From an uncultured Gemmiger sp. (GTDB lineage: Bacteria; Bacillota; Clostridia; Oscillospirales; Ruminococcaceae): a DNA stretch of 47,086 nucleotides. Numbering within the stretch: position 1 is the first letter of the stretch; the number at the start of each line of letters is the position of its first letter. The stretch spans positions 1 to 47,086 of the forward strand of contig CASFJO010000089.1 of assembly GCA_949295035.1 (NCBI GenBank). Direction: 5' to 3'. Made by a program: the position numbers and the translations under genes. Shown piece after piece: positions 3,126-28,676 of this stretch. The notes below the pieces were generated by a model. The model was given only the letters and a program-made list of their open reading frames with translations. It had not been told where the DNA came from and ran no database searches.

Positions 3126-4291
3126 CCGAAACGCCCGCCTGGCGGCGGGAGCTGGCCCGGCCCCGGGGCGCGGACGTGTTCCGGGTACTGGCCATCGGGA
3201 TGGTGGCCGCCTTCCATTTCTGGCAGCAGACCTGGATCGGCGGCGGGCGGCTGGACTATCTGCTGCGCACCGGCTGCGCCTGGGTGGACGGGATGATCCT
3301 GCTGTCCGCCTTCTGCCTCTGGCTGCCCCATGGGCTGGACGCGGCCGAGGGGCGGCCCTTCGCCGGCTGCGCGGGATTCTGGCGCCGGAGGCTGGTGCGT
3401 CTGGTGCCCGGCTACTGGCTGGCCACCCTGGTGGGCGGCGCGGCGAACGCGGTGCAGCAGGGGCTGGACGCCCATCTGGTCAAGGATGTGCTTGCCCATC
3501 TGCTGCTCATCCCCACCCTTTTCCCGGAGAGCTATATCTGGGCCCGCACCAACGGCGCCCTCTGGACGGTGGGGGTGCTGGTTCAGTTCTACCTGCTGTT
3601 CCCGCTGCTGGCCCGGGCCTTCCGGGCCCGGCCGGCACTGACCTTTCTGGGGCTGTGCGCGGTACAGGCGGGGTACACCGCCTGGGCTCTGGGGCTGGAG
3701 GATTGGCGATACTCCTTCGCCTTCAACCAGCTGCCCGCCTTTGCCGGGGTGCTGGCGCTGGGCTTTGCGGCGGCGTTGGCGGTGGCGCAGCTGGGCTGCC
3801 GGGTGCGCGGCCGGGGCCGATGGGGCTTTTCCGCGCTGGCGGTGGGGGGTCTGTGGGCCGCCGCCCGGGTGCTGCGCTGCATGAACGACATGGGGGATAT
3901 CCAGCACGCCCAGCTGATCTGGCGGATGCCGCTGATCGGCTGTCTGACCTTGGCGCTCATCGGCCTCTGCCTGGGGGTGCGGCTGCCCGGCGGGCGGCTC
4001 TGGGCCTTTCTGAGCGGGATCAGCTTCCAATATTACATGTGGCACCAGTGGCTGGCGGTGCAGCTCAAATACCACCTGCGCCTGCCCCCCTGGCAAGGAG
4101 ATACCCCGCCCAACCAGCTGGGCAACACCGCCTGGATGTGGCGCTATTTCGCGCTGATCCTGGCGGTCTCACTGGCGGCGGCGGTGCTGCTTACCTATGG
4201 GGTGGAGCGCCCGGCGGCTGCCCGTCTGCGCCGGCTTTTGGGCCTGGAGCGGTTCAAAACCGGCCAAATCCCGCAAAACACTTGCAAATAG
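3113..4291 (+). CDS. Acyltransferase family 3 membrane protein
   Basis: A polytopic membrane protein of the acyltransferase-3 (OafA/YrhL-like) family, whose members transfer acetyl or other acyl groups to extracytoplasmic sugars or glycans. The start shows the family pattern: ADVFRVLAIGMVAAFHFW, with the conserved His in the first membrane segment, then a second segment around WVDGMILLSAFCLWLP and an Arg-rich RRRLVRLVPGYW. About ten hydrophobic segments cover the 392 residues; no SGNH domain is attached. The start ATG overlaps the upstream aminopeptidase by 13 bases, which suggests translational coupling, although the two products have no obvious shared role. The target is unknown. Confidence 0.85.
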   Translation: MGAVTETPAWRRELARPRGADVFRVLAIGMVAAFHFWQQTWIGGGRLDYLLRTGCAWVDGMILLSAFCLWLPHGLDAAEGRPFAGCAGFWRRRLVRLVPGYWLATLVGGAANAVQQGLDAHLVKDVLAHLLLIPTLFPESYIWARTNGALWTVGVLVQFYLLFPLLARAFRARPALTFLGLCAVQAGYTAWALGLEDWRYSFAFNQLPAFAGVLALGFAAALAVAQLGCRVRGRGRWGFSALAVGGLWAAARVLRCMNDMGDIQHAQLIWRMPLIGCLTLALIGLCLGVRLPGGRLWAFLSGISFQYYMWHQWLAVQLKYHLRLPPWQGDTPPNQLGNTAWMWRYFALILAVSLAAAVLLTYGVERPAAARLRRLLGLERFKTGQIPQNTCK

Positions 4292-4310
4292 CAAGGGGTT
4301 GTGGTATAGT
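4282..4310 (+). promoter_or_regulatory. rimP operon promoter
   Basis: TTGCAA (4282-4287), a 17-base spacer and TATAGT (4305-4310), preceded by TGTGG, giving a TGn extended -10. The -35 lies in the last codons of the acyltransferase. The predicted start is near 4317. Confidence 0.75.
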
Positions 4311-4334
4311 GCTACTGTACGATGATCAACATGG

Positions 4335-4370
4335 AAAGTGGGCCGCAAGGTCCGCTTTTCTTGTTTGTTT
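4335..4370 (+). terminator. Attenuator-like hairpin in the rimP leader
   Basis: Ten base pairs (4335-4344 with 4349-4358, two of them G-U) close a GCAA tetraloop and are followed by a T-rich run to 4370. The hairpin lies between the promoter at 4282-4310 and the ribosome site AGGAGG at 4371, so it should stop part of the transcription before rimP. Because nusA is the second gene, NusA-dependent feedback at this site is plausible but inferred. Confidence 0.65.
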
Positions 4371-4382
4371 AGGAGGTTTTTC

Positions 4383-4871
4383 ATGGCGAAGGCAAAAGGC
4401 GGCCCCAGCACCGTGCAGGTGGTGGAGGCTCTGGTGCGTCCGGTGGTGGAGGGTATGGGCCTGCGGCTGTGGGACGTGCGGTTTGAAAAGGAAGGGCCGG
4501 ACTGGTTCCTGCGCATCCTGATCGACCGGGACATTCCGCTGGACACCGATACCTGCGAGGCGGTGAGCCGGGCCATCGACCCGGTGATCGACGCCGCCGA
4601 CCCCATCGAGCAGAGTTACTACATGGAGGTGGGCAGCCCCGGCCTGGGCCGGCGCCTGACGAGGGAGGAACATTTTGCCCTCTGCCGCGGCCAGAAGGTG
4701 GCCGCCCGGCTGATCCGTCCGGACGAGCAGGGCCGCCGGGACCTGGCCGGCGTGCTGGCCGGCAAGGAGGACGGGATGGTCACCCTGGAGACTCCCGAGG
4801 GCCCGGTGCGCTTTGAAGCCGCCGCCGCCAGCTTTATCAAGCTGTGCGACGATGAGGACCTGTTTGGCTGA
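4383..4871 (+). CDS. rimP: Ribosome maturation factor RimP
   Basis: RimP helps assemble the 30S subunit. The 162-residue product has the family's two-part form: an N-terminal alpha/beta domain with WFLRILIDRD and the signature YMEVGSPGLGRRLTREEHF, then an SH3-like C-terminal domain (VAARLI to FEAAAASFIKL). The reading frame is open upstream, but AGGAGG at 4371-4376 six bases before ATG 4383 fixes the start. It leads the rimP-nusA-ylxR-ylxQ-infB-rbfA-nrnA-truB-ribF operon. Confidence 0.95.
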   Translation: MAKAKGGPSTVQVVEALVRPVVEGMGLRLWDVRFEKEGPDWFLRILIDRDIPLDTDTCEAVSRAIDPVIDAADPIEQSYYMEVGSPGLGRRLTREEHFALCRGQKVAARLIRPDEQGRRDLAGVLAGKEDGMVTLETPEGPVRFEAAAASFIKLCDDEDLFG

Positions 4872-6625: not shown

Positions 6626-8955
<2,330 letters not shown>

Positions 8956-8969
8956 GAGGAGGGCGTACC

Positions 8970-9341
8970 ATGCCCAGTAAAAACCAGGGCCGTCTGGCCC
9001 AGGATATGAAGCGGGAGGTCATCGGCATCATCGGCCAGATGAAGGACCCGCGCCTGACCGGCGCGGGCCTGCTCACCGTCACCCGGCTGGACGTGACCCC
9101 GGACCTGGACCAGGCCCGGGTGCATATCAGCGTGATGGGGGCCTCCGATCAGGCCACCGCCGAGGCGGTCAAGGCGCTCAACAAGGCCAGCGGCCATGTG
9201 CGCACCGAGATCTCCCGCCGCATGCACATCCGCAAAGCCCCGCGCTTTGTCTTCTGCGCCGACGACGGCGCCGCCTACGCGGCTCACATCAACGAGCTGC
9301 TGGCCGGCCTGGAAAAGGACGACCCGGCCCGGGGCGAGTAA
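8970..9341 (+). CDS. rbfA: Ribosome-binding factor A
   Basis: RbfA binds the 30S subunit near the 5' end of 16S rRNA and assists late maturation. The 123-residue protein has a KH-like fold with the family signatures IIGQMKDPRLTGAGLLTVT and DLDQARVHISVMG, and ends with RRMHIRKAPRFVF. GAGGAGG lies just before the ATG and 14 bases separate it from infB. Confidence 0.95.
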   Translation: MPSKNQGRLAQDMKREVIGIIGQMKDPRLTGAGLLTVTRLDVTPDLDQARVHISVMGASDQATAEAVKALNKASGHVRTEISRRMHIRKAPRFVFCADDGAAYAAHINELLAGLEKDDPARGE

Positions 9342-9359
9342 GCCGAAAGGAGGGTATCC

Positions 9360-10346
9360 ATGACGGATCGTTTACAGCCGGAGGAGATGGTCAGCCGCCT
9401 TTTGAACGCGGAGGACATCCTGCTTCTGTGCCATAAAAATCCCGATGGGGACACCACCGGCAGCGCCGCGGCTCTGTGCCACGCGCTGCGGGGGCTGGGC
9501 AAGCGGGCGGCGGTATTCTGCGCCGATCCCATCCCGGCCATGTACAGCTATATGCAGATCCCGCTCTACACGCCGGACCAGTTCACCCCCGGCTGCGTGG
9601 CGGCCATTGACGTGGCCAGTATCCAGCTGTTCGGGGACGGGGCGCGGCCCTTTAGCGAGCGGGTGGACCTGTGCATCGACCATCACGGCTCCAACGCCGG
9701 CTACGCGGGGGAGACCCTGCTGGATGAATCGGCCGCCGCCACCTCCGAGATCCTGGCCGATCTGATCCCCCTGCTGGGGGCCGAGATCACCCCGCTCATC
9801 GCGGACTGCCTGTACACCGGCCTGTCCACCGACACCGGCTGCTTCAAGTTCGCCAACACCACCGCCCGCACCCACCGCACCGCCGCCCGGCTCATGGAAC
9901 TGGGCGCCCGCGTGGAGGAACTCAATCCGCTGTTGTTTGAGAACAAGTCCCGGGCGCTTATGGAGATCGAGCGGATGGCGCTGGCCGGATTGGAATATTT
10001 CTTTGACGGCCGCTGCGCCGTGATCTGCCTGACCAAAGAGCAGATCGCCGGCAGCGGGGTCACACCCGGCGAATTGGAGGGGCTCACCAGCCTTCCCCGC
10101 ATGATCGAGGGGGTGCAGGTGGGCGTCACCATGCGCCAGCTGCCCGCCGGCAGCTGCAAGATCAGCGTGCGCACCGTAAAAGGGGTGGACGCCTGCGCCA
10201 TCGCCCGCCGGCTGGGCGGCGGCGGCCACAATCAGGCCGCCGGCTGCGAGCTGGAAGGCAACCTGGAAAACGCCAAGCAGGCAGTACTGGACGAGGTGGA
10301 GAAGGAGTTCCGCCGTATGGCCGCCGCCGTGCAGGAGGAAGAATGA
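9360..10346 (+). CDS. nrnA: DHH/DHHA1 phosphoesterase (NrnA-type nanoRNase)
   Basis: A cytosolic manganese-dependent phosphoesterase that in relatives degrades 2-5 nucleotide RNAs and/or converts pAp to AMP. The N-terminal DHH domain shows HKNPDGDTTGS, AAIDVAS and CIDHHGSN; the C-terminal DHHA1 domain ends with the substrate-binding GGGGHNQAAG. The length of 328 residues matches NrnA. AAAGGAGG precedes ATG 9360, and the stop overlaps the truB ATG by four bases. The usual Firmicute rbfA-nrnA-truB order supports the call. It could act on cyclic-dinucleotide breakdown products instead. Confidence 0.9.
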   Translation: MTDRLQPEEMVSRLLNAEDILLLCHKNPDGDTTGSAAALCHALRGLGKRAAVFCADPIPAMYSYMQIPLYTPDQFTPGCVAAIDVASIQLFGDGARPFSERVDLCIDHHGSNAGYAGETLLDESAAATSEILADLIPLLGAEITPLIADCLYTGLSTDTGCFKFANTTARTHRTAARLMELGARVEELNPLLFENKSRALMEIERMALAGLEYFFDGRCAVICLTKEQIAGSGVTPGELEGLTSLPRMIEGVQVGVTMRQLPAGSCKISVRTVKGVDACAIARRLGGGGHNQAAGCELEGNLENAKQAVLDEVEKEFRRMAAAVQEEE

Positions 10347-11227
10347 GTTCGCTGAACGGGGTACTGGTGGTGGATAAGCCCGCCGGCTGGACCAGCTTTG
10401 ACGTGCTTGCCAAGCTGCGCGGGGTGCTGCATACCCGCAAGCTGGGCCATTCCGGCACCCTGGACCCGATGGCCACCGGGGTACTGCCGGTCTTTGTAGG
10501 CCCCGCCCGCAAGGCGGTGGATCTGCAGACCGACCACAACAAGGAGTATGAGGCGGTGATCCGCCTGGGCGTGCGCACCGACACCGGCGATGTGACCGGC
10601 ACGGTGGTGGAGACCGCCCCCGTCACGGCGGGAGAAGCGGAACTGCGGGCTGTGCTGCCCCGGTTTGTGGGGCCGCAGATGCAGCTGCCGCCCATGTACT
10701 CGGCGGTCAAGGTGGGGGGCGTGCCCCTCTACAAGGCCGCCCGCCAGGGCAAAGAGGTGGCGCGCGCCCCCCGGCCGGTGGTCATCCATGAACTGGAATA
10801 TCTGGGCCGGTGCGGTGAGAACGAGTACCGGCTGCGCATCTTTTGCGGCAAGGGCACCTATGTGCGGGTGCTGCTGGAGGAGATCGGCGCGGCGCTGGGC
10901 ACCGTGGCCACCATGGCCGAACTGCGCCGTACCAGGGCCGGGGCCTACACTCTGGCTGACAGCCATACGCTGGACGCGATCCTGGCGGCGGGGGAGCAGC
11001 TGCCCGGCCTGCTGATCGGGCTGGACACGGTGTTTGCCCAGCTGCCCGCCCTCACCGCCGACGGAGCCGCCGTGGACCGGCTGACCAACGGCGCGCCCGC
11101 CTGGCGATGCGGCCATCCCGCCGGGCGCTACCGGCTCTACGGGCCGGACGGCGGCTTTCTCGGGGTGGGCCGGGTGGATGCGGACGGCGCGCTCCGGGCG
11201 GAAAAACTGTTTATTGAGAGAGGATGA
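10343..11227 (+). CDS. truB: tRNA pseudouridine-55 synthase TruB
   Basis: TruB makes pseudouridine 55 in the T-loop of tRNAs. The catalytic motif is GHSGTLDPMATGVLPV with Asp41 as nucleophile; NGVLVVDKPAGWTSFDV at the start and YSAVKVGGVPLYKAAR and CGKGTYVRVL later are family hallmarks. A C-terminal PUA-like part (about 220-294) is present but short. It overlaps nrnA and ribF by four bases each (ATGA), a tightly coupled operon. Confidence 0.95.
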   Translation: MSSLNGVLVVDKPAGWTSFDVLAKLRGVLHTRKLGHSGTLDPMATGVLPVFVGPARKAVDLQTDHNKEYEAVIRLGVRTDTGDVTGTVVETAPVTAGEAELRAVLPRFVGPQMQLPPMYSAVKVGGVPLYKAARQGKEVARAPRPVVIHELEYLGRCGENEYRLRIFCGKGTYVRVLLEEIGAALGTVATMAELRRTRAGAYTLADSHTLDAILAAGEQLPGLLIGLDTVFAQLPALTADGAAVDRLTNGAPAWRCGHPAGRYRLYGPDGGFLGVGRVDADGALRAEKLFIERG

Positions 11228-14957: not shown

Positions 14958-14982
14958 TCTTTCGTTTCAAATCGTTTCAAAT

Positions 14983-15032
14983 CGCGCGCAGGGCGCGCCG
15001 CCAACCGGCGGCGCGCCCTGCGCGCGTTTTTT
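14983..15032 (+). terminator. Terminator after pnp
   Basis: A perfect 20-bp stem (14983-15002 with 15007-15026), AACC loop, then TTTTTT (15027-15032). It may also slow transcripts arriving from the convergent minus-strand gene ending at 15041, but that side has no good T-run. Confidence 0.93.
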
Positions 15033-15040
15033 ATTCGGTT

Positions 15041-16378
15041 TTATCCCACCGGTACCGCAAGCGCCCGGTACATGGTAAACAGGCCATAAACAGCCAGCAG
15101 CACGGCGGGGACCCAGAGCAGCCCGCGGGGCAGCCGGCTCTCCCGCGCGATGCGGAACAGCTGGCGAAGGCTCAGCAGATTCAGCAGGATATTGCTCACA
15201 TAGAACGGCCGTTCCAGCGAGGCGTAAATCGAGGGGGTGAATCCCATCAGCACCAGATTGGCCAGCACCGCCAGACCGGTGACGCCGGCTCCCCAGTCGA
15301 TCGTCTCTCCGTCGGTCAGCAGCACGCCGCAGAGCAGAAACCAGAAAAACAGCGCCAGCCAGGTCAGCGGCAGGGCCGAGGGGCCGCCTGCGTACAGATC
15401 GTTGCCCGGCACAAAGGCAAACAGCCCGGCCAGGGCCGGCACAAAGTCCCGCGCGGCGGCCAGCGCCCAGTATCCGGCGCAGACCCCGGCCAGCAGCATG
15501 GGAAGCCACCGGCGGCACAGCAGCAGCCGCAAAGCAAGCAGCGCGGCCAAAATAAATCCATAGCGGGCCAGTGGCCCGGTCAGGGCGTCCAGCCCGTAAC
15601 TCAGCCCCAGGGCCAGTTTCCGCCACAGGCTGTAGCCGCCGTAGTCGGGCCAGCGGGAGATGGTCTCGGCAAAGGTGCGCACGCCGTTTCCGGGCGCGGC
15701 GAGATTGACAGCGCTGTTCACCGCCGCAAGCGCCAGGATCGGCCAGAAGGGAAGAGGGATGTGCCGCCGGGTCAGCATAAAAGCGGCCAGCAGCACCAGC
15801 AGATAGCCCAGCAAGGTGGCGGCCGGTTGCTCCGCGTAGGGGGCAAAGCAGGCGCAGACCGCCGCTACGCCCCAGAGCACAGGCGGAATCTCCCGCCCCT
15901 GAAGCGCCAGGCAGAGCACCCATACGGTTATAAAACAAAGGGTCAGCCCCCACAGATACAGGACGGTGGAACATCCCCAGAGAACGGTGTTGAACAGCGA
16001 GGAGGTGCAGACCGCCAGCGCTCCGGCGGCCAGCGTCAAGGCGGGCAGGGCAGGCGTTTCCCTGTCCGGCAGGACAAAACAGGCGGCCAGCTGTTCCAGA
16101 CAGAAGGCCAGACCGGTCAGAAACAGGGCGTTCAGGGTGCGAAACACCCAGATGGGCATACGGGCCACCAGCACAAACACCAGATGCAGCACCCGGCCGC
16201 TCCAGTTCTGATAGTAGTAGGCGAACCAGTTCCCGATCCCGCCGTATTGCTCCGGCGCGGCCAGGAAGCGCAGATCGTCCGACCAGAATACCATCCGGCT
16301 GTTAAAGAGCAGGAACACCGCGAACAATCCCAGATAGATCCCCGCGCGGGGAGAAAGAAACCGACGCGTGCGATTCAC
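15041..16378 (-). CDS. DUF6056-like polytopic membrane protein (copy 1)
   Basis: A 445-residue integral membrane protein with about eleven hydrophobic segments. After the first segment it has an acidic pair (Asp34-Asp35) and, 20 residues on, the motif YYQNWSGR (55-62). Later come VLYLW, an EQ pair in CFAPYAEQ and APGNGVRT. These match positions in the second copy at 26860-28188 (Asp35-Glu36, HYQTWSSR at 55-62, LNYLW, MEQ, CPGSAVRT). The acidic pair in the first outside loop followed by a W-S/G-R motif resembles GT-C-type glycosyltransferases, so a lipid-linked sugar transferase is a reasonable but unproven guess. Its ATG overlaps the upstream small-protein stop by four bases. Confidence 0.72.
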   Translation of the reverse strand: MNRTRRFLSPRAGIYLGLFAVFLLFNSRMVFWSDDLRFLAAPEQYGGIGNWFAYYYQNWSGRVLHLVFVLVARMPIWVFRTLNALFLTGLAFCLEQLAACFVLPDRETPALPALTLAAGALAVCTSSLFNTVLWGCSTVLYLWGLTLCFITVWVLCLALQGREIPPVLWGVAAVCACFAPYAEQPAATLLGYLLVLLAAFMLTRRHIPLPFWPILALAAVNSAVNLAAPGNGVRTFAETISRWPDYGGYSLWRKLALGLSYGLDALTGPLARYGFILAALLALRLLLCRRWLPMLLAGVCAGYWALAAARDFVPALAGLFAFVPGNDLYAGGPSALPLTWLALFFWFLLCGVLLTDGETIDWGAGVTGLAVLANLVLMGFTPSIYASLERPFYVSNILLNLLSLRQLFRIARESRLPRGLLWVPAVLLAVYGLFTMYRALAVPVG

Positions 16379-16908
16379 AGGCCCACCTCCTCGCCGGTGT
16401 GGTAAAGGTAGCGGCTGCCGTCAGGCAGGGTGAAGGTCACGCAGATCTCCGCCTGACCGGGCAGACCGGACACCGGTACCCGCGCCGTCAGGGAGCAGCG
16501 CCCGTAGTCCAGGCCGTCCTCCGGCAGCCAGGACGCATCCGCCGCCGGTGCGCGCGCCTGGGTGGGCAGCAGATACAGCGCGCCGTTTTCCGCGTCCAGC
16601 AGAGCCAGGCGGCTGTCATTCCAGGGGCCTCGCACCTGGCTGCCGTTGCCCCAGTTGTAACTTTGATATTCCACACCCTCGTCCAGCGCCCAGCCGGTCA
16701 GCAAAAGAAAGCCCTCCTCCCGCGCGATCTGCTCCACCCCCGCATGCAGGGTAGGCCGGGCGCTGGCGTCGGTCCATCCGTCGGCGGAACTTCGCTCGAT
16801 CCGGGCGCGCAGCCCGTAGAGCAGCAGGCACGCCGCTGCCAGTACCGCCGCGCCCAGCGGCACCACAAGCGGCAGGATGCGTTTTCCAAAAGGCGATACA
16901 GGCTGCAT
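16375..16908 (-). CDS. Small membrane-anchored companion protein (copy 1)
   Basis: A 177-residue protein of unknown function with a short basic N-terminus, one hydrophobic segment (about 13-34) and a predicted extracytoplasmic, strand-rich remainder. It contains FLLLTGWALDEG, matched by VLTLSGWAMVRG in the second copy (28185-28676). Both end with a strand and a TYR/HIS-TG motif (YLYHTGE; LIYTGQ). A TTG at 16914 is in frame, but AGGAAG six bases before ATG 16908 favours the latter. It is translationally coupled to the DUF6056-like gene and lies 96 bases after rny, with a hairpin in between. No enzymatic motif is visible; a partner or substrate-binding role is inference. Confidence 0.68.
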   Translation of the reverse strand: MQPVSPFGKRILPLVVPLGAAVLAAACLLLYGLRARIERSSADGWTDASARPTLHAGVEQIAREEGFLLLTGWALDEGVEYQSYNWGNGSQVRGPWNDSRLALLDAENGALYLLPTQARAPAADASWLPEDGLDYGRCSLTARVPVSGLPGQAEICVTFTLPDGSRYLYHTGEEVGL

Positions 16909-16939
16909 AGGCAACTTCCTTTCTTGCGCGAGACGGCAA

Positions 16940-16994
16940 CGCGCCGGAACCAGGTGCGGAAGGCGCTGTGCCCTTCCACCCGCGTTCCGGCGCG
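16940..16994 (-). other. Intercistronic hairpin between rny and the membrane cassette
   Basis: An 11-bp perfect outer stem (16940-16950 with 16984-16994) encloses further partial pairing. On the minus strand it follows the rny stop but has no T-run, so it may mark an RNA end or a processing site rather than a factor-independent terminator. Confidence 0.45.
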
Positions 16995-17004
16995 TATGGG
17001 TGTA

Positions 17005-21220: not shown

Positions 21221-22072
21221 TTACGGCTCTTGCAGCGCCCGGGCCAGCGCGTCGGCCGCGTCCGCAAACCGTACCCCCGCCGCCCGGGCCCTGGCCGGGT
21301 CCATCCGCAGTTCCCGGGGCGGCAGGTCCTTGGGCCGGGCCAGCGCCGGGTCCGCCCCCAGCGCGGCCAGCCCCCGCCGGGCCAGTTCATAGACCGACAG
21401 CCCCGCCTCGTTGGGGCTGCCCCAGTTCCATACACCCCCCGGCAGCCCGAAAGCCGCGGGCAGGCTGGCCAGCAGTTCCCGCACATCGGTCACCCCCCGC
21501 CGGTCGGCGGCGGAAAACTCCGCCGTCTGCCCCTGTTCGGCCATCCGCCGCAGGGCCTGGGCCAGATCGCCCCGCCGGCAGGGGTAGGGACGGGGGTCGT
21601 ACAGCCAGGTCAGCCGCAGGCACACCGCCCCCGGCGCCAGCGCCGCGCACAAGGCTTCCGCCGCCAGTTTCTGCCGCCCGTAGGGCTGTGCCGGGGCGCA
21701 GGATTCTTCCTCTCTGTAAGGGCCGCCGTTCTCCCGGCCCGGCCGCCCCAGATATACCTGGTCGGAACTGCAGAACACCAGCCGGGCCCCGGCTTTTCCG
21801 CAGGCCCGGGCCACCAGGCGGGTCCCGTCCACATTGATCCGCCCGCTGCCCGCCGGATCGGCGGCGCAGGCCCCCACATCGCTCACAGCCGCCGTGTGCA
21901 GCACCCGGGTGGGCCGAAATTCCCGGAACACCCGCTCCACCGCCGCCGGATCGGTCAGATCCATCTCCCTGCGGCCCGCCGCCAGCGTCTGCCAGCCTGC
22001 CAGAGCGGAAAAGTACGCCGCCGCCCGGCTGCCCAGAAATCCGTTTGCCCCGGTGATCAAAAGCCGTTCCAT
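21221..22072 (-). CDS. RmlD-like NAD(P)-dependent sugar-nucleotide reductase
   Basis: An extended short-chain dehydrogenase of 283 residues, closest in form to dTDP-4-dehydrorhamnose reductase (RmlD). The dinucleotide-binding motif is GANGFLG (8-14). MDLTDPAAVERVF and PTRVLHTAAVSDVGAC are RmlD-like, and the catalytic pair is in YGRQK after the Ser of VFCSSDQVYLG. No rmlA, rmlB or rmlC lies nearby, so dTDP-rhamnose synthesis cannot be asserted; other sugar-nucleotide or NAD-dependent epimerase roles are possible. It is monocistronic with its own promoter. Confidence 0.82.
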   Translation of the reverse strand: MERLLITGANGFLGSRAAAYFSALAGWQTLAAGRREMDLTDPAAVERVFREFRPTRVLHTAAVSDVGACAADPAGSGRINVDGTRLVARACGKAGARLVFCSSDQVYLGRPGRENGGPYREEESCAPAQPYGRQKLAAEALCAALAPGAVCLRLTWLYDPRPYPCRRGDLAQALRRMAEQGQTAEFSAADRRGVTDVRELLASLPAAFGLPGGVWNWGSPNEAGLSVYELARRGLAALGADPALARPKDLPPRELRMDPARARAAGVRFADAADALARALQEP

Positions 22073-26859: not shown

Positions 26860-28188
26860 TCAGATCTCCCACAGGGAGATAAACTGTACCCCCGCCATGG
26901 GCAGCAGGATCGCCGCCGTCAGAAGTTTTTGCCACAGCCGCTCCAGCCGCAGCCGCCGGCCCACCAGCACCGCGCAGACCGCCGCCCCCATCGCAAAGAG
27001 GAAGCCGGTGCGCTCTCCGGACACCGCCGCCGCCGGGGTGAACCCGATGGCCGCCCGGGTGGCAAAGCCGCTCAGCAGCACCGCCAGTCCGGCAAAAGCC
27101 TGGGGCGTGTGGCCCAGCGCGATGTAGACACAGCCGCACACCAGGGCAAAGCAGCCGCAGAGCAGCAAAAAGGGGATCCAGGCGGTGAGCTGGTTGCAGT
27201 TGGACACATGCACCGTGCCCACCCCCCGGGCCGCGGCCACCGCGTCCCGCAGCGCCGGCACCAGGTCTTTGTAATGGCGGAACAGCAGCCCCAGGCTCAG
27301 CTCCACCGCCAGAGGCACCAGCGCCGCTGCCCGGTACAGCCAGTTCCGGCTGACCTGCCACACCGCCGCCGCCAGGATCATCAGGAACAGCGCGTAGAGC
27401 AGGTTCCGATCCAAAAACATCTCCCCCAGCGCGCCGGACACCCCTGCCTCCACCTTGGAGAGGAAGGACTGCATCCCGAAATCCTTGTAGTAGGATACGA
27501 TCTCGTTCTCGGTGCGCACGGCCGAGCCGGGGCAGGCCAGCATGTACACCAGCCCTGCCAGAGACAGGGCCGCCTCCGCGTAGAACAGCCGGGGCAGCGG
27601 CTGTTTGCAGAACACCCGCCAGCCGCCCCAGCAGGCCAGCAGCAGGATGGCCAGCACCATGGTCTGCTCCATGTTCACCGCGCAGACCATCCCCAGCACG
27701 GCCCCCACAGCGCCCCAGCGGCCGCCCCAGCCGTCCAGGGCGAGAAAGCCCAGGCAGAGCCCGGCCAGCGGCCACAGGTAGTTCAGGGTGGTCACCACCC
27801 AGCCGGCGGTGCTCAGATACCACCAGGGATACAGCCAGAGCAAGGCCGCCAGCAGCCAGTTCTCCCGGGCGTTTGGGGCGGCCCGGCCCCGCAGCAGCCG
27901 GCTCAGCGCCAGGGCCAGCCCCAGGATCACCGCGCTGTCCGCCAGCCGCCACACCCAGCGGGGCAGGGTGGAAAAGACGCAGAACAGCGTCTCGATCACC
28001 GTCCGGGAGGACCAGGTCTGATAGTGTTCCGCCAGAAAGCCCGCCAGCGACCGCTGCCCCAAAATGCTGCCGTAGAAAATTTCGTCCGCGTCCACGATCA
28101 CCAGCCCCAGGTGCCAGATCAGGGTCAGAGCACCGAACACAAAAAAGGGGGTCAGCGGGCTGCGCGCCCAGCGTCGCAGTTGGTTCAT
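26860..28188 (-). CDS. DUF6056-like polytopic membrane protein (copy 2)
   Basis: A 442-residue integral membrane protein with about eleven hydrophobic segments. It shares the landmarks of copy 1 (15041-16378) at nearly the same residue numbers: an acidic pair (Asp35-Glu36), HYQTWSSR (55-62), TTLNYLWPL, NMEQ and CPGSAVRT. Overall identity between the copies looks low, so the duplication is old or the two were acquired separately. A GT-C-like glycosyltransferase role is an inference from the acidic pair and topology. It is the last gene of the minus-strand operon and overlaps the small companion gene by four bases. Confidence 0.72.
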   Translation of the reverse strand: MNQLRRWARSPLTPFFVFGALTLIWHLGLVIVDADEIFYGSILGQRSLAGFLAEHYQTWSSRTVIETLFCVFSTLPRWVWRLADSAVILGLALALSRLLRGRAAPNARENWLLAALLWLYPWWYLSTAGWVVTTLNYLWPLAGLCLGFLALDGWGGRWGAVGAVLGMVCAVNMEQTMVLAILLLACWGGWRVFCKQPLPRLFYAEAALSLAGLVYMLACPGSAVRTENEIVSYYKDFGMQSFLSKVEAGVSGALGEMFLDRNLLYALFLMILAAAVWQVSRNWLYRAAALVPLAVELSLGLLFRHYKDLVPALRDAVAAARGVGTVHVSNCNQLTAWIPFLLLCGCFALVCGCVYIALGHTPQAFAGLAVLLSGFATRAAIGFTPAAAVSGERTGFLFAMGAAVCAVLVGRRLRLERLWQKLLTAAILLPMAGVQFISLWEI

Positions 28189-28676
28189 ACAGCGCCTCCC
28201 ATCGTGGTCTGCCCGGTGTAGATCAGGGCGTTATGGCCGTCGCTGCGGTAGGCAAAACAGAGTTCCAGCGCCCCGGCGGGCAGCTGATCGGTCAGCGCGA
28301 AGCCGTACAGCCCGGCGTAGAGCGCTCCGGATTCCCCGGTGGCGGCCACCGCCGCCTGGCTCTGTTCCATGGTGGTGGGCAGCCGGTAATACTGGTCACC
28401 GGCCGGGTCATAGAGCACATACCGGCAGTCCACCGAGCCGGGGCCCTCACCCCGCACCATCGCCCAGCCGCTCAGGGTCAGCACCCCGCTGCCGGGTGTG
28501 ATCGTGCACGCATAGACAAAACCCTCCGGCGCCGGTTCGGTGTAGGCGGCCGGGTCCAGCCGCCGCACCGACCGCAGATCGGCGCGCAGCAGAAAGGCAA
28601 AAAGAAGGATACCCGCCGCCGCCAGGGCCCAGAACCCCCACAGCAGCCGGGGATCGGCCGGTTTGGCCGGTTTCAT
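28185..28676 (-). CDS. Small membrane-anchored companion protein (copy 2)
   Basis: A 163-residue protein with one hydrophobic segment (about 10-31) and a strand-rich extracytoplasmic part. VLTLSGWAMVRG and the later PAGALELCFAYRSDG and LIYTGQ correspond to FLLLTGWALDEG, LPGQAEICVTFTLPDG and YLYHTGE in copy 1, so the two are homologous. GGAGGG precedes ATG 28676, only 19 bases after the PFL stop, placing it in the ACT-PFL operon. No known domain is recognised with confidence. Confidence 0.68.
   Translation of the reverse strand: MKPAKPADPRLLWGFWALAAAGILLFAFLLRADLRSVRRLDPAAYTEPAPEGFVYACTITPGSGVLTLSGWAMVRGEGPGSVDCRYVLYDPAGDQYYRLPTTMEQSQAAVAATGESGALYAGLYGFALTDQLPAGALELCFAYRSDGHNALIYTGQTTMGGAV

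Follow-up and report, generated by a model that had tools for sequence, protein, structure and literature searches.

The window analysed here is a stretch of 47,086 nucleotides from an uncultured Gemmiger sp. (contig CASFJO010000089.1 of assembly GCA_949295035.1), and it carries two pairs of membrane-protein genes, laid out head-to-tail on the minus strand with the small gene first. On balance, each pair probably forms a cassette for a two-protein envelope-glycosylation unit, in which a GtrC-type transferase would act at the outer face of the membrane together with a separate, immunoglobulin (Ig)-like subunit that handles the acceptor. The enzyme is of an already known type; what is new is the proposed accessory subunit on a chain of its own. 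The case is built on gene pairing, family membership, divergence of the two genes in step, purifying selection, and fusions of related domains to polytopic glycan proteins, all of which are observed in the sequences. An original prediction, made from the letters of the window, had described the two pairs as a duplicated cassette, joined by a 4-base overlap and with the same gene order in both copies; the pairs stand where it placed them and both genes are homologous by alignment, although the genome holds three such pairs rather than two. The genes, and the features to which the argument refers, are as follows.

15041-16378, minus strand: large gene 1, 445 amino acids with a GTG start; putative DUF6056/GtrC-like polytopic transferase (PF19528, E 7.8e-15, and alignment with epsilon34 GtrC)
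16375-16908, minus strand: small gene 1, 177 amino acids; short N-terminus, one predicted transmembrane (TM) segment, and a presumed extracytoplasmic domain of ~140 residues with a TGWA...LPT...HTG core
26860-28188, minus strand: large gene 2, 442 amino acids; putative DUF6056/GtrC-like polytopic transferase (PF19528, E 6.4e-13)
28185-28676, minus strand: small gene 2, 163 amino acids; homologue of small protein 1
16375-16378, minus strand: 4-base stop/start overlap (GTGA) of small gene 1 and large gene 1
28185-28188, minus strand: 4-base stop/start overlap (ATGA) of small gene 2 and large gene 2
Contig C30 of the same genome (G000:C30), minus strand: third pair, small gene at 10140-10640 and large gene at 8794-10143, with the same 4-base overlap
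16274-16279, minus strand: acidic pair D34-D35 of large protein 1, presumed to lie in the first extracytoplasmic loop; the column of D35 is invariant up to epsilon34 GtrC
16193-16213, minus strand: YQNWSGR motif of large protein 1, residues 56-62; Y56, W59, S60, and R62 columns invariant up to epsilon34 GtrC
16816-16878, minus strand: TM anchor predicted at residues ~11-31 of small protein 1; approximate, from the single hydropathy segment in an orthologue and other family members
16429-16719, minus strand: candidate Ig-like (Big_7-like) region at residues ~64-160 of small protein 1, transferred by alignment from small protein 2
28239-28499, minus strand: candidate Ig-like (Big_7-like) region of small protein 2, residues 60-146, from a profile-profile match

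The two large proteins are 25% identical over 255 aligned positions (E 9e-9, BLASTP), and the two small proteins are 27% identical (E 2e-7). The landmarks to which the original prediction had drawn attention in the large proteins do match in position: YQxWSxR occupies residues 56-62 in both, the acidic pair lies at 34-35 in large protein 1 and 33-36 in large protein 2, YLW at 141 and 137, PGxxVRT at 229 and 220, and the glutamate of the EQ landmark at 183 and 174, respectively. Both proteins pass the gathering cut-off of PF19528 (27), with 55 and 48.7 bits, and are thus DUF6056 proteins proper and not only “DUF6056-like” as had been proposed; 12 of the 15 members of alignment A3 match this family at E <= 1. 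GtrC of the Salmonella phage epsilon34, the gene for which sits in a gtrA-gtrB-gtrC operon, matches the same family (E 3.7e-67), and a nine-protein alignment that includes it with large proteins 1 and 2 has 12 invariant columns (D35, Y56, W59, S60, R62, W130, Y137, W139, E174, G221, R225, and P385 in the numbering of large protein 2). Because most of the landmarks are among these columns, they mark the wider DUF6056/GtrC enzyme family rather than the pair. A crude hydropathy count gives 7-9 segments in the copy 3 large protein and in orthologues of copies 1-3, GT-C glycosyltransferases having ~7-13 TM helices. The invariant acidic D35 is placed after the first TM segment, as expected of the first outer loop of a GT-C enzyme if the loop is oriented as we infer; acidic motifs in an extracellular loop are typical of such enzymes, and in GtlB the comparable D35 and D38 of the first outer loop are essential (PMC5836110; here and below, papers are cited from excerpts). 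Given the DUF6056 cut-off, the shared family of epsilon34 GtrC, and the invariant landmarks, the large protein is most likely a GtrC/GT-C transferase that uses a polyprenyl-phosphate sugar. This assignment supports the earlier proposal of a GT-C-type enzyme acting on a lipid-linked sugar, as do the GtrB-like genes beside its relatives, whereas the description of the system as “undescribed” does not extend to the enzyme. The epsilon34 gtr operon is “almost certainly” behind serotype conversion, and its GtrC is 30-40% identical to proteins at the gtrC position such as STM0557 (PMC2629481), the STM0557-STM0559 locus being responsible for the addition of glucose onto O-antigen galactose (PMC3688519). 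It seems improbable that the large protein is instead a flippase, a polymerase, or a ligase-like membrane protein of the same pathways. No biochemistry was found for its subfamily, and a domain like the small protein also occurs on a Wzy_C-like protein, which would suit such a role; however, the Pfam family and the 12 invariant positions shared with epsilon34 GtrC, the outer-loop acidic residue, and the family 2 glycosyltransferase (GT2) genes adjoining relatives all argue for a sugar transferase.

The small proteins have one hydrophobic segment near the N-terminus followed by ~130-140 residues, in which the positions G-W-A, L-P-T, G-F, E-L-C, and H-T-G are commonly conserved. The final TG motif noted in the original prediction is indeed common near the C-terminus but is not universal, being missing in G236, G145, and G083. 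Membership of a known family was rejected: the small protein has no curated family in Pfam or NCBIfam and nothing significant in PDB sequence searches, its PHROGs matches have E 0.35 or worse, and nine family members compared with Pfam gave stray single matches only. Three lines point to an outer Ig-like module associated with glycans. In hhalign, the small family matches the four Big_7-containing repeats of a secreted-type protein of G044 (87.8%, E 3.3e-6). In G951, a GtrII-type transferase (PF14264) has a related domain on its C-terminal side (small profile E 3.3e-7). A Wzy_C-like polytopic protein of G1274 has another as its C-terminus (small profile E 1.0e-15), and the gene for this protein is near LicD and Polysacc_synt genes and, by eye, dTDP-rhamnose-like genes. 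Six far small-like sequences score 15.6-67 bits, five of them at <=26, the best composition-shuffled decoy scoring 7.2. A GT-C enzyme with an Ig-like module for acceptor binding is already described, namely ORF12, the C-terminal Ig-like carbohydrate-binding module (CBM) of which binds the unmodified polymer (PMC11127046). The small protein probably helps the large enzyme to find or handle its target.

The two genes are closely associated. In the 297 genomes of the host family, the small-protein profile finds 18 genes in 11 genomes at E < 1e-10, and all 18 directly adjoin a match to the large-protein profile, which at 1e-6 has matches in 33 of the 297. Three weaker small matches (G163, G180, and G032; E 0.0036-0.007) were dropped as noise because their genomes have no large match at 1e-6 and the open reading frames (ORFs) concerned look unrelated or antisense. 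When fragments of two frame-split genes (G067 and G245) are set aside, the large matches fall on either side of a gap in E-value, 4.3e-46 (the subfamily of the window proteins) versus 1.7e-23 (other DUF6056-type proteins). A phylum-wide search with the large profile at 1e-20 added five genomes among 398, of which G461, G541 (four copies), and G557 were counted into the subfamily (< 1e-50) and G610 and G538 were not; diverged small genes lie upstream of the large genes in G541 and G461. A class-wide search with the small profile (391 genomes) found, besides the window genome, small genes beside large genes in G541 and G1323 and the fusion in G1274, and an order-wide search (394 genomes) returned G000 and G001 plus the two longer proteins of G951 and G044. 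The pair in G1323, a genome from a different family of the same class, also has the 4-base overlap, which is seen in 15 of the 16 pairs compared, G159 having a 1-base overlap; in the G461 pair, the small and large genes are separated by a gap of 16. Shine-Dalgarno-like purine runs, GAGGAGGTG in copy 1 and GGGAGGCG in copy 2, lie near the 3′ end within the small genes.

A hidden Markov model (HMM) of the small protein, scanned over up to 900 bases upstream, detected a small gene in 19 of 29 scorable large loci of the subfamily and in none of 20 scorable loci of the other DUF6056 type. Apart from one duplicate, the scan covered 53 distinct loci, 31 of the subfamily and 22 of the other type; of the 22, 11 came from the PF19528 search and 11 from the host-family and phylum searches with the large profile. 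Two subfamily loci (G256 and G557, with 211 and 145 bases upstream) and two others (G021 and G030, with 377 and 224) were unscorable. The HMM, built from ten sequences, includes eight of the 19 positives, the scores of which are therefore not independent, although their position is. The scan omitted the known pairs of G033b, G067, and G245, which with that of G1323 are additional to the 19, and the weak PF19528-search matches L020, L027, L028, and L030, which are other proteins by eye. In Acetobacterium bakii (L093, 3594-6350), a DUF6056 gene that looks canonical by eye stands right before a subfamily member with no upstream small gene. Taken together, these counts indicate that the small gene accompanies the large gene and not vice versa. 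The proposed obligate partnership therefore stands for the small protein, all strong matches of which in the host family adjoin a large gene, but not for the large protein, the gene of which is without an upstream small gene at ten scorable subfamily loci and at the 20 scorable other loci.

The pairs are under purifying selection: dN/dS, the ratio of nonsynonymous to synonymous divergence, is 0.11-0.31 (Nei-Gojobori; eight comparisons between Gemmiger genomes, covering both genes and all three loci). In these genome comparisons the dS of copy 1 is high (0.77-0.99). Large protein 2 is 90-95% identical to the large protein of three Gemmiger sp. loci. The possibility that the cassettes are a duplicate artefact or antisense ORFs was rejected in view of this purifying selection, and the long antisense ORFs opposite them (541 and 486 amino acids), which are without a hydrophobic segment, were set aside. 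In both gene trees, copy 1 clusters with G145 and G1323 (support 0.93 in the small tree and 0.999 in the large tree), the homologues in this group coming from other genera and another family, and stands apart from copies 2 and 3. Many deeper nodes of these trees are weakly supported, and the trees exclude G067 and G245, in which the large gene is split between frames, and G033b. The copy-1-type small proteins also have in common an extra segment (YNWGNG, YNFGEG, or FNFGWN) that is absent in copies 2 and 3. A recent duplication of the cassettes was rejected on the placement of copy 1, which makes the word “duplicated” misleading; judged from the trees and alignments, the cassettes are old, have been kept separately, and are each coherent as a unit. 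The predicted conserved small partner is borne out by adjacency, and it diverges in step with the large protein: the distance matrices of the two proteins correlate with r 0.98 over 16 pairs (none of 5000 permutations as high; the G159 small protein entered without its first residue) and with r 0.86 when one pair is taken per orthologue group (10 pairs; one of 5000 permutations as high). Since adjacent, co-inherited genes would also correlate, this result signifies long joint inheritance rather than contact.

It is distinctly unlikely, and slightly less probable than a flippase-like role for the large protein, that the two proteins are co-transcribed without direct cooperation, the small one being an independent wall-binding or sensing protein. 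Four-base gene overlaps are frequent in bacteria generally, large proteins occur without the small one, and related domains are found in a secreted repeat protein, all of which would agree with such independence; against it, the 18 strong small matches of the host family adjoin a large gene without exception and in differing surroundings (rny and pnp, DUF711 and DUF378, or, by eye, near an Ssb-like gene), and further families of the class also have such pairs.

Genes for donor synthesis are found around several relatives of the large protein. A GT2 donor-synthase gene abuts the subfamily member on its upstream side in three genomes, G006, G178, and, by eye, G209, so that three of the ten scorable subfamily genes without a small gene are directly preceded by a same-strand GT2. 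The GT2 gene is instead downstream in G236 and in G557, where it overlaps the subfamily gene. All of these GT2 neighbours except that of G209 were confirmed by Pfam. In an Oenococcus phage, an annotated GtrB gene follows the DUF6056 gene. One of the G541 pairs shares its locus with GT2, LytR-CpsA-Psr, and DUF2142 genes, and the surroundings of the G461 pair have, by eye, the look of a polysaccharide locus, where two polytopic neighbours had no Pfam name and a third had only a MatE match below the cut-off. The neighbour of the subfamily member in G105 is a UbiA-family gene, and a UbiA-type synthase feeds a GT-C enzyme during pentofuranose addition (PMC11127046). The window genome has four GtrA-family matches and a GT2, the latter at a contig end and 56% identical to the GT2 beside the G236 pair, all on other contigs. 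Because some Shigella GtrA and GtrB proteins are interchangeable (work cited in PMC3688519), donor genes unlinked to the cassettes are plausible.

A feasible model may be that, on the outer side of the membrane, the large protein transfers one sugar from a polyprenyl-phosphate carrier to a polymer of the cell wall or surface. Its active site would include, or be close to, the YxxWSxR segment and the conserved aspartate in the first outer loop. Other loci of the genome would supply donor synthesis by a GtrB/DPM-like GT2 and flipping by GtrA. The small protein would be an accessory subunit, in which one membrane anchor carries an Ig-like domain on the outside to hold the acceptor glycan or select it; as a separate chain, it would be the counterpart of the C-terminal CBMs within other GT-C enzymes. 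The three cassettes may serve different acceptors or linkages. Catalysis, donor, acceptor, topology, physical contact, and glycan binding are the inferred parts of the model.

Several observations weigh against this model of a transferase with an acceptor-handling subunit. No gtrA or gtrB was recognised adjoining the window cassettes, the immediate neighbours of which are pnp, rny, DUF711, and DUF378 genes. The ten subfamily large genes without an upstream small gene imply that the small protein is dispensable for the basic reaction, and divergence in step is expected for any co-inherited neighbours and is no proof of contact. PDB sequence searches with the large and small proteins returned nothing significant. 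The Ig-like assignment of the small domain depends on the one profile match and on modest far-member scores (15.6-26 bits in five of the six), and the Wzy_C match of the G1274 fusion (PF04932, E 1.5e-6) has 28.5 bits, below the cut-off of 31.7. Positive charges flank the TM segment of the small protein on both sides, so that its outward topology is assumed. Finally, ORF12 did not need its Ig-like CBM to be active in the conditions used (PMC11127046). In the principal alternative, a possible one to which we assign a clearly lesser though appreciable likelihood, the outer domain of the small protein binds no glycan, and the protein would instead work via its TM or juxtamembrane segment as a factor in assembly, stability, or activity, comparable to GacJ and WpsB with a GT-A enzyme. 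Any stable complex would account for the gene overlaps and the divergence in step, GacJ and WpsB activate a sugar-lipid synthase as small membrane proteins (PMC10821137, PMC8035078), and the CBM of ORF12 is unnecessary for catalysis; against this alternative, the conserved positions of the small protein are mostly within the outer domain, and small-like domains occur in fusion with other polytopic proteins and are similar to Ig repeats of a secreted protein.

The proposed unit shares features with several known systems. Like GtrABC, as represented by epsilon34 GtrC, it has a large protein of the same Pfam family with the same invariant columns, and relatives of this protein adjoin GtrB-like GT2 genes; unlike GtrABC, the window copies are without a recognised adjoining gtrA or gtrB and have an extra small partner, and large protein 2 is only 15% identical to epsilon34 GtrC. 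In the GT136 enzyme ORF12 and the mycobacterial Emb and AftD proteins, likened here by description, the GT-C enzyme binds the acceptor polymer by means of an Ig-like outer module; the cassettes would resemble them in this, but there the module is within the same chain, whereas here it would be a separate, membrane-anchored protein (PMC11127046). GacI/GacJ and WpsA/WpsB resemble the cassettes in that a small membrane protein is encoded with an envelope glycosyltransferase, which in those systems it modulates (PMC10821137, PMC8035078). However, GacJ has three TM helices and its partner is a GT-A donor synthase rather than an outer-face transferase, while the small proteins counted here have one hydrophobic segment and a DUF6056 partner. 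The CsbB/YfhO and GtlA/GtlB systems of teichoic-acid glycosylation, again likened by description, combine a donor synthase with a polytopic GT-C-like enzyme, and the excerpted text of PMC5836110 mentions no small partner for them. Word searches of open-licence papers found no description of a separately encoded, membrane-anchored Ig-like partner and no match for the name DUF6056.

The neighbouring genes of the window cassettes were examined within ~12.5-30 kb. Copy 1 is flanked by rny and pnp and copy 2 by DUF711 and DUF378 genes, so that the location of the cassettes is uninformative on the acceptor; the third copy is, by eye, near an Ssb-like gene. A gene for an RmlD-like sugar-nucleotide reductase (PF04321, E 8e-36) lies at 21221-22072 on the minus strand, between the two cassettes, and none of the other neighbours scanned is a sugar-nucleotide gene. 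Two inverted repeats border copy 1.

14979-15030, strand not assigned: 24-nt inverted repeat with a 4-nt loop, terminator-like, between the convergent pnp and large gene 1
16939-16995, strand not assigned: 12-nt perfect inverted repeat between rny and small gene 1

The arms of the former are 96% complementary and T-rich DNA follows; by the look of it, this repeat is a terminator shared by pnp and large gene 1. The latter has perfect 12-nt arms around a 33-base centre.

DUF6056 relatives are also present in phage records, and a tblastn search of viral_contigs with alignment A4 found no relative of the large family. Enterococcus phage VEsP-1 (L138) encodes at 3396-4766 a DUF6056 protein ~31% identical to the subfamily member of G006; its gene, between lysin and integrase genes, is likely a lysogenic conversion gene. 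The virus record BK063677.1, with Methanobacteriales as its listed host, has a stretch related to the DUF6056 subfamily at 47776-48561. L007, a DUF6056 protein, matches positions 320-669 of the 825 in the phrog_34335 profile, which is named GtrB; this suggests phage proteins that fuse GtrB with DUF6056. In G541 (L112:11925-13700, minus strand), a VanZ domain (PF04892) is fused to a predicted DUF6056 transferase in a single ORF.

It is tempting to speculate, although this broader idea is tentative and rather less likely than the two-protein unit itself, that acceptor reading is modular: the Ig-like “GWA” domain, whether separate (with GtrC/DUF6056) or fused (to GtrII-type and Wzy_C-like proteins), would direct unrelated outer-face glycan enzymes to their polymer, and the several cassettes maintained by Clostridia would amount to a code for glycan decoration. 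For the DUF6056 proteins of Clostridia, the present analysis offers a likely function in outer-face glycosylation. It also points to an undescribed family of accessory proteins, which may split catalysis from acceptor recognition in GT-C enzymes; because the module here is its own gene product, which can be deleted, swapped, and purified, the role of CBM modules in GT-C enzymes becomes directly testable. The cassettes may also be a source of surface sugars that differ from strain to strain in a gut commensal.

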